Part shown: piece after piece, positions 5,897 to 12,935 of the stretch
Layout of the letters: the number at the start of each line of letters is the position of its first letter
Position numbering within the stretch: position 1 is the first letter of the stretch
Virus record (IMG/VR): IMGVR_UViG_3300042355_001605
Span: 1 to 32,739 of that record
DNA: 32,739 nucleotides
Direction: 5' to 3' (one strand)
From: a virus
Made by a program: the position numbers and the translations under genes
The notes under the pieces: generated by a model
The model's input: the letters and a program-made list of their open reading frames with translations, nothing else
What the model was told of the DNA's origin: nothing
Database searches by the model: none

Positions 5897-6301
5897 ATGC
5901 TGAGCTCCGATCCAACCCAGGGGTCCGAGAATGAGAATCAAGAAAAGTTCGGCATACGTAAGAGTACGCTTCATGGTCAAAAATATCCCTATATCGAAGA
6001 GTTTAGCGAGTTCTTAGCCAGTGTGTCCACTAAAGCGCTCAAATACCAACTGATGACCTCCCAACAGCGTTTAATGGCTAAGGCCCTATGGGAGGCCACC
6101 AACTTCGGTGGCTCTAAAGAGAAGTGCATAGAGCACCTTACCAAGATATACGGACCACGGTGGCGTCAGGTCACCACGTTCGAAGAACACATGGAAGAAG
6201 AACGCGCTTACTGCGAGTATGTGCTGATTCTGGATCACATGCGGCAGTGGGACAAGCATCAAAAATTAGCTACACTTTGCGAAAGGCAGCCTAATCAATG
6301 A
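5897..6301 (+). CDS. Hypothetical protein, 134 aa
   Basis: The frame stays open upstream to 5780, but that would run through the divergent gene and the promoter, so ATG 5897 (MLSSDPTQGSENENQ) is the likely start. The product is helical, soluble and rich in Glu, Lys and His. It contains YGPRWRQVTTFEEHMEEER, followed by a long helix. It overlaps the next gene by 4 nt (ATGA at 6298-6301), showing translational coupling. No family is recognised. Confidence 0.6.
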   Translation: MLSSDPTQGSENENQEKFGIRKSTLHGQKYPYIEEFSEFLASVSTKALKYQLMTSQQRLMAKALWEATNFGGSKEKCIEHLTKIYGPRWRQVTTFEEHMEEERAYCEYVLILDHMRQWDKHQKLATLCERQPNQ

Positions 6302-6894
6302 CGGAGAACAGGGTCGAAGACTGGCTCGACATTCTCGACAAAACTGAATTTGAGCTGGACGTAGACGCTGGGAATACTTACCAGAGCTATCGCTTCGCTT
6401 CGCTCGACATCAACGAGGTGACCGTCGAAAATTATAAAGACAAACTGGTTAATTCTCTTGCGGAACAGGTGGATATCTTCCTGCCACCGTCCGGAAGCTT
6501 TGAAACGCCAGACCTTCGACGCTATCTTGAGCTTGTATCCAGCTATGAAACCAGTACGACGGACCTGATGATGGGCCTGTCGCTGGCTGATCAAATCCGA
6601 TTGACGTTCAGCGATATGAAGACCAGCACCATCTGCGACCGCTACCCCGACATTGGTCTGGCCGAGAAACGGCGGTATCGTTGCGTAGCCGAATATCTTA
6701 TCCGCCAGGGGGAACTGACGAAGCTACGGGATGAGCACGGGAAACTGATTAAAAAAATTGGTAATATGCAGAAAGCTGTGGTTTTATACAAACCACTACC
6801 CAAGTTATTGGAGACTCTCAAGCGCTCTGGATTGGGACATCTCGTCAAAAAGAGTCAGGAAACCCAACCAAGCGAATCACAACAAGCGCAGTAA
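6298..6894 (+). CDS. Hypothetical protein, 198 aa
   Basis: The ATG lies in the ATGA overlap with the preceding stop. The N-terminal third is acidic (VEDWLDILDKTEFELDVDA). The middle carries a likely DNA-binding-like segment (SDMKTSTICDRYPDIGLAE followed by RYRCVAEYLIRQ). The C-terminus is a basic helix ending in a Gln/Ser-rich tail. No catalytic motif is seen. It is the second gene of the probable early operon that ends with the Dam-like gene. Confidence 0.6.
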   Translation: MTENRVEDWLDILDKTEFELDVDAGNTYQSYRFASLDINEVTVENYKDKLVNSLAEQVDIFLPPSGSFETPDLRRYLELVSSYETSTTDLMMGLSLADQIRLTFSDMKTSTICDRYPDIGLAEKRRYRCVAEYLIRQGELTKLRDEHGKLIKKIGNMQKAVVLYKPLPKLLETLKRSGLGHLVKKSQETQPSESQQAQ

Positions 6895-8167: not shown

Positions 8168-8191
8168 GTAGGTATTCTGACAGCCCTGAAC

Positions 8192-8503: not shown

Positions 8504-8685
8504 ACAATTACTCGCTAGAGCTGCAGTTAATCGACGCGCTAGATCAGATCAAGGATCTATCCCCGGACGCGGCGGAGATCCTAGACCGCTGGGTTTCTCA
8601 TTCCAAAGACGAAAAAAGTGCTTCAGGGCATGTCCAGATGGATCCCAGCTCAGAATCTTCCCTTCCAGATACTCAATCGCCTTGA
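8482..8685 (+). CDS. Possible small acidic protein, 67 aa
   Basis: It starts at ATG 8482, overlapping the DUF1599 gene by 22 nt. The N-terminal half (MQYDEFIDNYSLELQLIDAL) is an acidic helix that looks like a real protein. The second half, antisense to the lysozyme-like gene (137-bp convergent overlap), is low-complexity Ser/Pro. Either the two genes truly overlap tail to tail or one of the 3' ends is not functional. Confidence 0.35.
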   Translation: MQYDEFIDNYSLELQLIDALDQIKDLSPDAAEILDRWVSHSKDEKSASGHVQMDPSSESSLPDTQSP

Positions 8686-9319
8686 TCTGATTATGGACTC
8701 CCGTGTAAGTCTCGGGTAAATTCAACAGGCAAACCTTGAGTTTGCAGTTGTGTTCTGTAAAGGTGGGAATCTCTTTGTCTGGAGCTAAAAACGTATCCAG
8801 CTCTGCGCGTCGTCGGTTGATAATCAATTCACCACCAGAACGCCACATTTTATTGATGTATGGGCTCCACTCACGGAGGATGTCTTTTTTGCTGGCGTGA
8901 GAGTTGATCAGCCCTAACAGACGTGATTCCTTGAAGCCCGTCACCCCTAGGTTGTGGGCAAATGACAGGATGGCCGCCTTTCGGTTCTTGTTTAAAGGCA
9001 CAAAAATATACGGTTCGATCTGTTTGGTAAATTCTTTTAGATCCTCGATTAGCTGCTCTTCAATCTGCTTTTGGGTCGCGACTTCGTGGTATCCAACCCA
9101 GTGCTTGTTTATTTTCTTGCTACCGTATCCAATGCGCCAGATGTCCTCTCCGTATTCTTTGTATGAACCAAAACGCCCCATACCTAAATTGGTACGGGGC
9201 TGGGTATGACGTTTAATTAATTCAACTCCTTTCGGAGTGAGCAGCGGGTACTCACTCCAATCTTCAGTATTCTTACGGGACGACGACGCTGCCAGTGTAG
9301 GAAACTTCAGAATAGCCAT
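8549..9319 (-). CDS. GH24 lysozyme-like protein, catalytic residues apparently lost
   Basis: The 256-aa product has a phage lysozyme framework at residues 26-180: LLTPKGVELIKRHTQPR, WRIGYGSKKINKHWVG, then AAILSFAHNLGVTGFKES and the R-rich ELIINRRRAELDTFL. The family's catalytic Glu (FEG) is replaced (KRHTQ), and the Thr of TIGYG is Arg (RIGYG). It may be a structural or peptidoglycan-binding relative. The last 75 residues match nothing I know. Its start overlaps the 128-aa gene by 47 nt. An intact lysozyme is encoded at 13841-15088. Confidence 0.6.
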   Translation of the reverse strand: MAILKFPTLAASSSRKNTEDWSEYPLLTPKGVELIKRHTQPRTNLGMGRFGSYKEYGEDIWRIGYGSKKINKHWVGYHEVATQKQIEEQLIEDLKEFTKQIEPYIFVPLNKNRKAAILSFAHNLGVTGFKESRLLGLINSHASKKDILREWSPYINKMWRSGGELIINRRRAELDTFLAPDKEIPTFTEHNCKLKVCLLNLPETYTGVHNQIKAIEYLEGKILSWDPSGHALKHFFRLWNEKPSGLGSPPRPGIDP

Positions 9320-9659
9320 CCAAAGTTAGCAGCACCACGTAGTCTTTGGCAGCGTTGGTCACAGTAACGGCCACAGCGCCCTTACCAGAACCGTTCTTCA
9401 CGATATTGCTGTACTTGGTGTAGCCAGTCGGAGCATTACCAGCGGTGTACGCGTCCTCTTGGAAGATCTCCATCGTGTTAATGCCGCTGGTTTTATCCAG
9501 CTTGACGATGATGTCGCCAGTGTTGCCGGGGTTCACCCGGAATCCACGGATGTTCAGACCACCAGTGGAACCGGCAGAGGTGTTGCCCAGATAGGTAACG
9601 TCGGAACCGCTGTCAACTTGGAACGTGTCGAGGGTACCTTTGATCGTGCGGGTGGCCAT
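9273..9659 (-). CDS. Small beta-rich virion protein, 128 aa
   Basis: The product (MATRTIKGTLDTFQVDSGSD) is built of Thr/Gly/Val-rich strands such as GNTGDIIVKLDKTSGIN and AVAVTVTNAAKDYVVLLTL, ending in SYTGSVVVP. There are no Cys, no signal and no membrane segment. This composition is typical of small decoration or fibre-accessory proteins. It follows the nblA-like gene by 5 nt and is probably cotranscribed with it. Confidence 0.6.
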   Translation of the reverse strand: MATRTIKGTLDTFQVDSGSDVTYLGNTSAGSTGGLNIRGFRVNPGNTGDIIVKLDKTSGINTMEIFQEDAYTAGNAPTGYTKYSNIVKNGSGKGAVAVTVTNAAKDYVVLLTLDGYSEVSYTGSVVVP

Positions 9660-9664
9660 GGTGG

Positions 9665-9880
9665 TTAGGAAATCTGTCCGAGCGTGGAGTAGTTGAAATT
9701 GATATCGGCGTCGATGCCGTGGTCTTTCAAGATGCCCAGGAACATTTGACGGTCCAGGGCTTTCTGGTGGAGCATCTCGATGAAAGCCTCTTCCAATTCG
9801 TCCCGGTCCAGGTTTTGAATGGCTAGGGCGGCAGCGTGGATTGAAAACTCCACGTCCATCGGAAGATCTACGGCATCCAT
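9665..9880 (-). CDS. nblA: NblA-like phycobilisome degradation adaptor
   Basis: The 71-aa product aligns without gaps to the NblA of Synechococcus elongatus as I remember it. The stretch LDRDELEEAFIEMLHQKAL corresponds to ISREDLEDLFIEVVRQKMA, followed by FLGILKD against FKGMIRQ. Host NblA (about 60 aa, helix-loop-helix dimer) tethers phycobiliproteins to Clp protease so antennae are destroyed under starvation. Phage copies are known from freshwater cyanophages and from an uncultured marine lineage. From M8 the protein would be 64 aa, the family's usual length; an AAGG lies 12-13 nt before the first ATG. It is cotranscribed with a small virion gene. A 50-aa ORF lies upstream on the same strand. 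Confidence 0.8.
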   Translation of the reverse strand: MDAVDLPMDVEFSIHAAALAIQNLDRDELEEAFIEMLHQKALDRQMFLGILKDHGIDADINFNYSTLGQIS

Positions 9881-9930
9881 GGGTGATCTAAACCTTACAG
9901 ATATCCTAACAGCGCTGAATTAATCGTCAA

Positions 9931-10083
9931 TCACACGCGGTACGGGGGTTCATCCAGGGGTTTGGTGCGTTGATCCGTCGTAAATGACGGCAGGTCAACA
10001 CCCTCCTCAAAAACGGCCGGAACCAGCTCTGCTAAATGCTCGGTGACGTAATTTTTTAAGTGTTCGTGGGGAGTTGGATTCAT
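9931..10083 (-). CDS. Small hypothetical protein, 50 aa
   Basis: ATG 10083 to TGA 9931. The product begins MNPTPHEHLKNYVTEHLAEL and ends in a conserved-looking DEPPYRV tail, the kind of ending I recall in small cyanophage proteins. It is acidic, soluble and helical at the start. A weak GAGAG ribosome site precedes the ATG. It lies directly upstream of the nblA-like gene on the same strand and divergent from the oxygenase. Confidence 0.5.
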   Translation of the reverse strand: MNPTPHEHLKNYVTEHLAELVPAVFEEGVDLPSFTTDQRTKPLDEPPYRV

Positions 10084-10221: not shown

Positions 10222-11016
10222 ATGATCAGCAACCAACTCGTCGCGGAATTTATGAAATCAGCGGTTGGTGGCGTGAGTAGGACGCAACTGATTAGGACCA
10301 TGAGGGAGCTCCATGGACTGGGGGATGGCGAAATTGATCAGGTCATCCACCTGTGCTCATTTAGAAGTCGGCCGTCTGACATTAATTACAAAGATTTCTA
10401 CGGCGCCAAGATCACCAAAACGGGGAATCGGATCTTTTATCCGTTTACTCAAATTTATACTTACGACAACATTTTAACCAAAGATGAATGTGAGGCGTTA
10501 ATAAGGCTCATTGATACTCGCTTGAGACCTTCAACTGTCTCCGATGACGCAGATTCATGCTTGGTTTCAGACTACAGAACCAGCCAAACCTCAGACCTGC
10601 ACTACTTTGACGACCCTCTTTACCTGGAGCTAGACAGGAGAATTGTAGACACTTTAGGGCTCTATAGTTTTCTCGGTGAGATTATGCAAGCACAAAAATA
10701 TGAGCCTGGTCAATACTATAAAGAGCACTGGGACTTCTTCATGCCCACCACAAAGGAATACAAAATTTACTGCGAATGGATGGGGCAGCGAACTTGGACC
10801 GCTATGGTCTATCTCAATGATGTTGAAGAGGGTGGTGAAACGTATTTCAAGCACCTAAATCTTCATGTAAAGCCCAAACAGGGAATGCTGGTCGTCTGGA
10901 ATAATCTCTATAAAAATGGACTACCAAATCTAAAAACTATGCATGAGGCGTGCCCGCCCCTCAGTGGAAACAAATATGTAATTACTAAGTGGTTCCGCAG
11001 CTGGAGTTTAATTTAG
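10222..11016 (+). CDS. 2OG-Fe(II) oxygenase, prolyl-4-hydroxylase-like
   Basis: The C-terminal 180 residues of this 264-aa protein fit the P4H family. The Fe(II) triad is H169 and D171 (YYKEHWDFF) and H241 (TMHEA), with a 2-oxoglutarate-binding Lys at 251 (GNKYVITKWFRSW). An RTSQT motif precedes, and TAMVYLNDVEEGGETYF is the usual core. The enzyme would hydroxylate a protein side chain (or another substrate), using O2 and 2-oxoglutarate. The first 60 residues are an extra helical region. Cyanophages commonly carry such genes. It has its own promoter and is convergent with the next gene (4-nt overlap of stops). Confidence 0.85.
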   Translation: MISNQLVAEFMKSAVGGVSRTQLIRTMRELHGLGDGEIDQVIHLCSFRSRPSDINYKDFYGAKITKTGNRIFYPFTQIYTYDNILTKDECEALIRLIDTRLRPSTVSDDADSCLVSDYRTSQTSDLHYFDDPLYLELDRRIVDTLGLYSFLGEIMQAQKYEPGQYYKEHWDFFMPTTKEYKIYCEWMGQRTWTAMVYLNDVEEGGETYFKHLNLHVKPKQGMLVVWNNLYKNGLPNLKTMHEACPPLSGNKYVITKWFRSWSLI

Positions 11017-11380: not shown

Positions 11381-11845
11381 CTAGGCGTCCAGGTTGGCTT
11401 TGAGAAGCCACTGGAACTTCTTGTGGACCCGCCCACGCTCAACAGCTAAGTCAAGCGTCAGTTGATCGCCAAGGGTCTCAGCCATGGCTGCTAAATCCTG
11501 GAAGCGGTCAGCCAGCGCGTTTTGATTGGCGGCCAACTGGCTGATGATCACCTCTTGCTTGAAGCAGTCTTCCAGGGGGACGGAGGGGAGGTTGGAATAG
11601 GTCAGGTCTTCGACGGTCTTGGGCGTCGCAATGTCCAAAGAGCGGATATGTTCCGCGATTACGTCGAGAGCTTCCTGCATCTCTTCGTAAATCATTTGAG
11701 TCAGCGTATGGATTTGGTAAAACTTGCTACCCATCAAACCCCAATGGACAAGCAGGGTTTGCTGATACAGGTGCATCGAATCACGCAGGCACTGAACCAG
11801 GTGGGAGTAGCAGGCACTTGTCTTGTTTGTTTGGGGTTTTGCCAT
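11381..11845 (-). CDS. dps: Dps-like ferritin (iron-storing, DNA-protecting) protein
   Basis: ATG 11845 gives 154 aa; the open frame extends four codons upstream to a GTG. The sequence LLVHWGLMGSKFYQIH followed by ALDVIAEHIRSLD is the Dps signature. Counted from the GTG, His 38, His 50, Asp 65 and Glu 69 keep exactly the spacing of the E. coli Dps ferroxidase residues 51, 63, 78 and 82; the fifth (Asp67) is Gln. Dps dodecamers oxidise Fe(II) with H2O2 and shield DNA. In a phage it could protect DNA from photosynthetic oxidants or hold iron. It sits 5 nt after the upstream stop, so it is operonic. Confidence 0.75.
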   Translation of the reverse strand: MAKPQTNKTSACYSHLVQCLRDSMHLYQQTLLVHWGLMGSKFYQIHTLTQMIYEEMQEALDVIAEHIRSLDIATPKTVEDLTYSNLPSVPLEDCFKQEVIISQLAANQNALADRFQDLAAMAETLGDQLTLDLAVERGRVHKKFQWLLKANLDA

Positions 11846-11850
11846 GGGTT

Positions 11851-12156
11851 TTACCACTTAACTTTGTCGGCCCAATATGCGGCTGAGCCTTTACCTTTTG
11901 CGATATTTTTTGCGTGCCTAGCTTTAAAACTAGCACGTTTTTTCTTCATTCTTTCCGATTCACCTTCTTTAGGTTTACCAGCCGTTTCAGCTCCTTGTTC
12001 ACCGAATCTAATTATCTTTTCTCCTCCAGGTACATCATCACCACACGCTCGAACAACGTGTGATTTTGTCGGATGATCTGGTGTTCGTACGGGCTTGTTA
12101 CATTTCAGCCGTTCAACAGCCAGCCGCTTAGCCTTCGCTCGGTCAGCCATGATCAA
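11851..12156 (-). CDS. Conserved cyanophage-type basic protein, 101 aa
   Basis: The product starts MIMADRAKAKRLAVERLKC (second ATG at 12150 also possible) and ends FKARHAKNIAKGKGSAAYW plus a short tail. I recall proteins with this start and this ending from many marine cyanophages, with TPDHPTKSHVVRAC in between; their function is unknown to me. It is basic and hydrophilic, suggesting nucleic-acid or virion-interior association. The ATG overlaps the stop of the upstream 59-aa gene (ATGA), and the Dps-like gene follows closely. Confidence 0.65.
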   Translation of the reverse strand: MIMADRAKAKRLAVERLKCNKPVRTPDHPTKSHVVRACGDDVPGGEKIIRFGEQGAETAGKPKEGESERMKKKRASFKARHAKNIAKGKGSAAYWADKVKW

Positions 12157-12782: not shown

Positions 12783-12857
12783 GGGAACGTAGCCCAATCG
12801 GAAGCAGGCAAGCGACTTAAAATCGCTACAGTGTGGGTTCAAATCCCACCGTTCCTA
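12783..12857 (+). tRNA. tRNA with UAA anticodon (Leu) and short variable loop
   Basis: The cloverleaf folds cleanly. The acceptor GGGAACG pairs with CGTTCCT (one G-U at 1-72), with discriminator A at 12857. The D arm is GCC/GGC with GG in the loop. The anticodon stem is AGCGA/TCGCT with loop CTTAAAA (anticodon TAA, 12818-12820). The T arm is GTGGG/CCCAC with loop TTCAAAT. There is no encoded CCA. A leucine tRNA normally has a long variable arm, but here it is only 5 nt (ACAGT), a class I shape. Confidence 0.85.
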
Positions 12858-12860
12858 CTA

Positions 12861-12935
12861 CGGGGTGTAGCTCAGCTTGATTAGAGCGGTCGCTTTGGGA
12901 GCGACAGGCCGAAGGTTTGAATCCTTCCACTCCGA
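12861..12935 (+). tRNA. tRNA-Pro (UGG anticodon)
   Basis: The acceptor CGGGGTG pairs with CACTCCG (with C1-G72, as in bacterial tRNA-Pro), and the discriminator is A at 12935. The D stem is GCTC/GAGC, the anticodon stem GTCGC/GCGAC with loop TTTGGGA (anticodon TGG, 12896-12898), and the T stem GAAGG/CCTTC. It starts 3 nt after the preceding tRNA and has no encoded CCA. It reads CCA and probably other proline codons. Confidence 0.95.

Follow-up and report, generated by a model that had tools for sequence, protein, structure and literature searches.

A divergent NblA-like gene preceded by a conserved promoter-like element in a phage of the S-EIV1 lineage

Organization of the locus

The DNA analysed here (the window) is a 32,739-base IMG/VR virus record. 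An intact ORF of 71 codons with an ATG start runs from position 9880 to position 9665 on the minus strand in the ORF listing of the window, a strand left unstated in the first-pass annotation; the plus-strand frame over 9665-9880 contains two stops and is not open. The features of the region are listed below.

8549..9319, minus strand: phage lysozyme/endolysin gene, last in a three-gene unit (Pfam PF00959, 2.6e-16)
9273..9659, minus strand: 128-aa gene; the ORF starts at 9659, 5 nt downstream of the NblA-like gene
9665..9880, minus strand: NblA-like gene, 71 aa (ORF; NblA homology; AlphaFold2 helix-loop-helix; dN/dS)
9902..9919, minus strand: conserved element TTCAGCGCTGTTAGGATA with an extended -10 (TG-T-TAGGAT), ending 22 nt before the ATG
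9903..9930, minus strand: putative sigma-70-like promoter; TTGACG (9930-9925), 16 nt, TAGGAT (9908-9903), TG before the -10
9931-10083, minus strand: 50-codon ORF between the NblA-like and 2OG-oxygenase genes
10222..11016, plus strand: 2OG-Fe(II) oxygenase gene, divergent from the nblA-like gene (PF13640, 8e-16)

Because the 2OG-Fe(II) oxygenase gene upstream runs the opposite way, the NblA-like gene opens its unit, in which it is followed by the 128-aa gene and then by the lysozyme gene; the latter two overlap (lysozyme ORF, 9319 to 8549). The 128-aa neighbour has no Pfam match up to E=10 and matches two PHROG families weakly, one of unknown function (0.019) and one of a minor tail protein (0.1). 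The first-pass annotation of this DNA had placed the NblA-like gene 5 nt from a small virion gene, and had described it as tucked among virion genes. The spacing is correct; the virion identity of the neighbour finds no backing in the Pfam and PHROG results, and the second description is a loose one for a gene flanked by an oppositely oriented 2OG-oxygenase gene on one side and by the 128-aa gene and lysozyme on the other.

Relatives were collected by scanning viral contigs with short patterns. The best 80 of 191 were used and, together with one relative from a GTDB contig, make up a set of 81 loci. In this set, the 128-aa gene lies directly downstream of the NblA-like gene in 79 loci, with a spacer of 5 nt in 70 and of 4 nt in 9; the remaining two loci end there. 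The lysozyme gene was found in 75 loci, the other six ending less than 450 nt from the nblA-like gene. On the upstream side, the 2OG oxygenase gene, which forms the boundary of the unit, is not found in all relatives: it was matched in 64 of the 81 loci, some of the non-matching loci being short. For the 50-codon ORF, a match covering 70% or more of its length was seen in just 24 of the 81. The GTDB relative, the only one found in that collection, comes from an 11 kb contig assigned to a MAG named Bacteroidetes; its genes are arranged as in the phage, so that this is probably a mis-binned phage contig.

Relationship to Synechococcus phage S-EIV1

The capsid protein of the window has a sole match, at 69%, to Synechococcus phage S-EIV1 (50,697 phage records, E 1e-5; records close to the window may have been excluded from this set). 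By tblastn at E 1e-3, 18 of the 43 window proteins are matched in S-EIV1; the NblA-like one is matched by HMM only. A related major capsid protein and a shared gene order thus place the phage in the S-EIV1-like cyanophage lineage. Since the capsid matches only a Synechococcus phage, a Synechococcus-type host is likely, and the earlier proposal of a phycobilisome-bearing host gains support from this relationship.

The S-EIV1 homologue of the NblA-like protein is AHV82245, annotated as hypothetical and recovered by hmmsearch at 5e-5 among 1931 ORFs. Its gene occupies the corresponding place in the genome, with the structural block on one side and a block of opposite orientation on the other, and, like the genes of the S-EIV1-type relatives (loci L091-L121), it lies beside a lysozyme gene. 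The two types differ in several respects. They share 22-28% identity; the S-EIV1 type has an acidic C-terminal tail, unlike the window type, and lacks the TTCAGCGCTG element described below; and the S-EIV1 gene sits right behind the lysozyme gene, whereas the window gene sits ahead of it. We infer that the NblA-like gene at one locus of one phage lineage comes in two types. All ten S-EIV1-type relatives scanned match PF04485, the Pfam NblA family (best 9.2e-6), and at least one member, L116, exceeds the PF04485 cut-off (26.2 against 25 bits). At the level of sequence, the S-EIV1-type homologues are a bridge between the window protein and NblA.

An nblA-bearing lineage with lysogenic potential, carrying an integrase, was reportedly described by Flores-Uribe 2019. 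The present lineage is seemingly a different one, since Phage_integrase was found in none of 11 long records. A prophage most similar to S-EIV1 is reported in S. elongatus UTEX 3055 (PMC9239245).

Homology to NblA

The first-pass annotation had noted a gapless match to the NblA core, and alignment reproduces it: the window protein aligns over 47 residues without gaps with S. elongatus NblA (3cs5), 12 of them identical, the shared residues including R-x-x-L-E-x-x-F-I-E...QK...F-x-G. Against 1ojh, 11 of 49 residues are identical. When the window protein was compared with the PDB by phmmer (177,635 distinct sequences), the top two matches were the two NblA chains (E 0.0028 and 0.01). A 33-row family profile, built from 32 distinct proteins, ranked 3cs5 first (0.00054) and 1ojh second (0.036), followed by an unrelated chain (0.058). 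A 26-row profile combining the window family with the S-EIV1 type matched the two NblA sequences, at 1e-5 and 2.8e-5, and no others, while a 10-row profile of the S-EIV1 type alone was weaker (0.0073 and 0.43). The best NCBIfam family for the window protein is likewise NblA (E 1.8e-4), with a score of 21.6 bits against the cut-off of 100 for the equivalog NF045916. In hhalign, the window family aligned with 12 NblA rows at a probability of 95% and the S-EIV1 type with NblA at 94.5%; the two phage types aligned with each other at 91%.

An NblA HMM was built from 12 rows: the two PDB segments, Ma-LMM01, four genes borne on plasmids, and five sequences from viral contigs that an NblA alignment had picked up; it contains no row of the window family or of the S-EIV1 type. 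It was run without filters against every stop-to-stop ORF of 40 aa or longer in the window and 206 loci, a set of 15,260 ORFs that is partly redundant because the loci include many close relatives. The window ORF was found at E=2.4e-5. All of the 81 relatives were recovered as well (E from 2.5e-7 to 0.006), as were 31 of 32 S-EIV1-type genes (E from 1.5e-5 to 0.026); L109, the one not recovered, is cut off. The HMM also recovers its own 10 genes, by construction, and not one unrelated ORF among these partly redundant 15,260 fell below E=1. The reverse search of the same ORFs with a window-family HMM returned 31 of the 32 genes of the S-EIV1 type, plus seven NblA genes; this direction is less clean, as three unrelated ORFs were also picked (0.059, 0.13 and 0.81).

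Some searches gave less. The PF04485 search that the first-pass annotation had named as a test is negative for the window protein up to E=10. When family rows were scanned one by one, only four of 33 matched PF04485 (best 0.054), and unrelated Pfam families did equally well or better with the same rows: FF domain in 6/33 (best 0.048) and DUF3231 in 3/33 (best 0.0084). A tblastn search of 50,697 phage records with the ORF gave no cyanophage match. The same search with the two PDB NblA segments returned one phage record each (E 9 and E 3); with Ma-LMM01 among the searched records, such poor recovery marks this route as insensitive. In our judgement the more sensitive tests outweigh the negative PF04485 result, and the designation nblA-like is borne out by the PDB, NCBIfam, NblA HMM and S-EIV1 bridge comparisons. 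Because the protein stays below two curated cut-offs, we call it a divergent NblA-like variant and do not file it as a PF04485 member.

Sequence signatures and predicted structure

In the window protein, the canonical EQQF of NblA is replaced by DVEF, and its family has invariant residues and a C-terminal tail of its own. A lysine aligned with K53 of Anabaena NblA, a position that we take to be one used for phycobilisome binding, is invariant in the 33 family rows and not kept in the S-EIV1 type.

An AlphaFold2 monomer model of the window protein (26 sequences) has helices at residues 8-22 and 26-53, with a pLDDT of 73.5 and a pTM of 0.45. It thus presents an NblA-type helix-loop-helix of about 60 residues, at moderate model confidence. 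A canonical viral NblA used as control (L126, five sequences; PF04485 at 9.9e-20) has predicted helices of like length, at 8-22 and 26-54 (pLDDT 85.6). The helix boundaries in the two models agree to one residue and the conserved phenylalanine is residue 12 in both. Foldseek and VIA-align searches with the window model listed no NblA; since Foldseek listed none for the canonical control either, the fold search was dropped as evidence.

Conservation of the gene in related phages

The best 80 of 191 relatives encode 32 distinct proteins, all of 71 aa and 79-100% identical to that of the window, the 79% lower bound being an effect of taking the best 80. A second set was selected through the capsid protein (best 80 of 595), and 16 of its contigs were tested, ten of at least 44 kb and six of 27.9-34.3 kb. 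Nine of the 16 carry the NblA-like gene. It is present in 8/8 of the tested contigs that hold a flanking marker gene (window 6298-6894), four of which had also surfaced through the NblA-like gene itself. In the seven contigs without the gene the marker is missing as well; these may be fragments.

Median identity in the 81 loci is 84.5% for the NblA-like gene and 42-77% for neighbour proteins found in at least 10 loci, a ranking that favours the NblA-like gene because the loci were picked by similarity to it; the capsid protein shows about equal or better conservation, at 91-92% in 8 contigs. When 25 loci were compared with the window, synonymous change ranged from high to saturation (pS 0.46-0.99), whereas non-synonymous change was low (pN 0.012-0.128), with dN/dS values of 0.015-0.087 where computable. 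The NblA-like gene is under purifying selection.

A promoter-like element upstream of the gene

The pattern TGKTANNATR, with the end of the -10 placed 22 nt upstream of the ATG, occurs in 81/81 loci, which represent 48 distinct upstream sequences. Most have a TTG-like -35 triplet, and TTCAGCGCTG or a variant lies between -35 and -10. The window has one exact copy of the element and one copy with 3 mismatches at 8173-8190. With up to 2 mismatches allowed, each of 10 long contigs has a single copy, at the NblA-like gene, and the idea that the TTCAGCGCTG element might be a phage-wide late promoter was rejected on this count.

With up to 3 mismatches, the 16 capsid-selected contigs yielded 23 matches against 9 for a reversed control pattern. 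Nine of the 23 lie at the NblA-like gene, one per gene-carrying contig, and 14 elsewhere. In three contigs (G014, G016 and G023) the copy at the NblA-like gene is 3 mismatches away; the palindrome is thus not strictly kept, but the extended -10 is. When the best 12-column block in the 60 nt upstream of each of 15 gene starts was scored, the highest value was obtained at the NblA-like gene (0.91). The next ones (0.82-0.85) seem, from their positions, to lie in neighbouring or mis-started coding sequence. A scan of the region for the sigma-70 consensus gave 5 sites where 4.7 are expected from shuffles; since consensus sites are no commoner than in shuffled sequence, the case for a promoter rests on conservation. 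Altogether, the NblA-like gene apparently has a promoter-like element of its own.

In the S-EIV1-type loci (L091-L121), a -10-like TAGAAT or TAAAAT was seen by eye about 20 nt before the gene in most of 19 loci. With such a hexamer at a similar distance in most loci, the S-EIV1-type gene, too, may be served by a promoter of its own.

Discussion

Cyanobacterial NblA attaches to phycobiliproteins and to ClpC, and hands the antenna over to the Clp protease (PMC7966870, PMC7760959, PMC4103541). The window protein has the gapless core and size class of the cyanobacterial proteins (3cs5, 1ojh; PF04485), and differs from them in its low identity, the loss of EQQF and scores below curated cut-offs. 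We consider it probable that the product of the ORF is a divergent NblA-like protein, belonging to S-EIV1-like Synechococcus phages, that promotes phycobilisome degradation. The protein would most likely form the NblA helix-loop-helix and then a dimer, which would bind phycobiliproteins and the host ClpC chaperone; host Clp protease would then degrade the phycobilisomes. Their loss would free amino acids and cut excess light absorption during infection. Dimer formation, binding to ClpC and phycobilisomes, and bleaching are here ascribed to the window protein by analogy, and may be expected of it to the extent that it behaves as known NblA proteins do.

The features that set the family apart could also reflect a change of target. 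An NblA-derived Clp adaptor might have kept the NblA fold and ClpC docking and deliver some other host or phage protein. The DVEF replacement, the family-specific invariant residues and the C-terminal tail would suit such an adaptor, as would the better conservation of the gene than of its neighbours in the 81 loci, though these loci were chosen for that gene. However, NblA profiles score the window protein without any bridge, and the lysine at the Anabaena K53 position is invariant in the 33 rows, though not in the S-EIV1 type; we regard retargeting as unlikely. It is very improbable that the protein is not NblA at all, but a small two-helix phage protein of convergent resemblance. Two-helix proteins easily give weak matches, the model confidence is moderate, PF04485 finds no match, and the family rows are matched about equally by unrelated Pfam families; against this, the S-EIV1 bridge agrees with PDB, NCBIfam and the NblA HMM, and below E=1 that HMM drew in nothing unrelated from the 15,260 ORFs. 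That the gene is a relic homologue without effect on the phycobilisomes of present hosts is scarcely credible, given high synonymous and low non-synonymous change, its retention in 8/8 contigs holding the marker gene and a conserved promoter-like element.

Phage NblA itself is known and has been functionally studied; what is new here is a divergent NblA-like subfamily in the S-EIV1 lineage, with what appears to be its own promoter-like element. Effects of viral NblA on oceanic cyanobacteria are said to be the subject of Nadel et al. 2025 (Nature). Phage nblA genes have been described in freshwater phages, cyanopodoviruses, S-TIM5 and S-SCSM1, and marine examples are active in a model cyanobacterium (PMC9602691). 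Table 2 of PMC5332604 gives nblA for the PaV-LD, Ma-LMM01 and MIS-PhV1B groups, and not for the S-EIV1 group. In those portions of the literature naming both that were covered, which comprise neither the S-EIV1 genome paper nor Nadel et al. 2025, no link between S-EIV1 and nblA was found; part of the finding on NblA in the S-EIV1 lineage may already be in print.

The NblA of Ma-LMM01 (BAF36096) is also a phage protein, but a clear PF04485 member (1.1e-13); its gene overlaps nrdA, and that phage belongs to a different group from the window. The NblA of the T4-like phage S-SCSM1 (QFG06501) resembles the window protein in having no PF04485 match (up to E=1). Its gene adjoins a virion-protein gene, so that a virion gene next to nblA would not be a new setting. 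As a closer relative of the window protein, the S-SCSM1 family was rejected: no ORF in the S-SCSM1 stretches searched or in its relatives fell below E=1 with any of three HMMs.

These results extend NblA-like genes to the S-EIV1 phage lineage, whose cultured member has the gene annotated as hypothetical. As the curated Pfam model misses the window type, surveys based on PF04485 would undercount antenna-degrading phages. The timing of antenna dismantling by phages also becomes more approachable, through a conserved promoter-like element specific to this gene and through a cultured relative that has a homologue. The first-pass annotation had suggested that the NblA-like gene may be expressed late and not early, a timing on which the features of the locus point both ways: the co-directional lysozyme gene in the unit would fit late expression of the NblA-like gene; the host-type promoter-like element would fit early or continuous expression. 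For the nblA of Ma-LMM01, early transcription has been reported (PMC4103541). A core NblA-type adaptor, with a dedicated promoter and in one unit with lysozyme, might conceivably allow antenna dismantling and lysis to be switched together, or might be retargeted to another ClpC substrate, although we would not expect this pair of readings to hold.

Additional features of the window

Inside the lysozyme ORF, at 9175-9200 (minus strand), there is a strong 10-bp hairpin, GCCCCGTACC-N6-GGTATGGGGC, followed by GTTTT. It reappears at roughly this position in 20 of 27 folded relatives, and four others have only weak folds. The stretch also encodes a conserved PRTxxGMGR-like peptide; one relative (L005) has one two-sided change. 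The hairpin might act as a terminator or attenuator ahead of lysozyme, or might reflect only coding constraint.

A ferritin-like/Dps gene lies at 11381-11857 on the minus strand (PF00210, 3.1e-12); S-EIV1 also has a DNA-binding ferritin-like protein, but at another place. Two tRNA genes, tRNA-Leu(taa) at 12783-12858 and tRNA-Pro(tgg) at 12861-12935, both on the plus strand, stand side by side and adjoin an HNH endonuclease gene.
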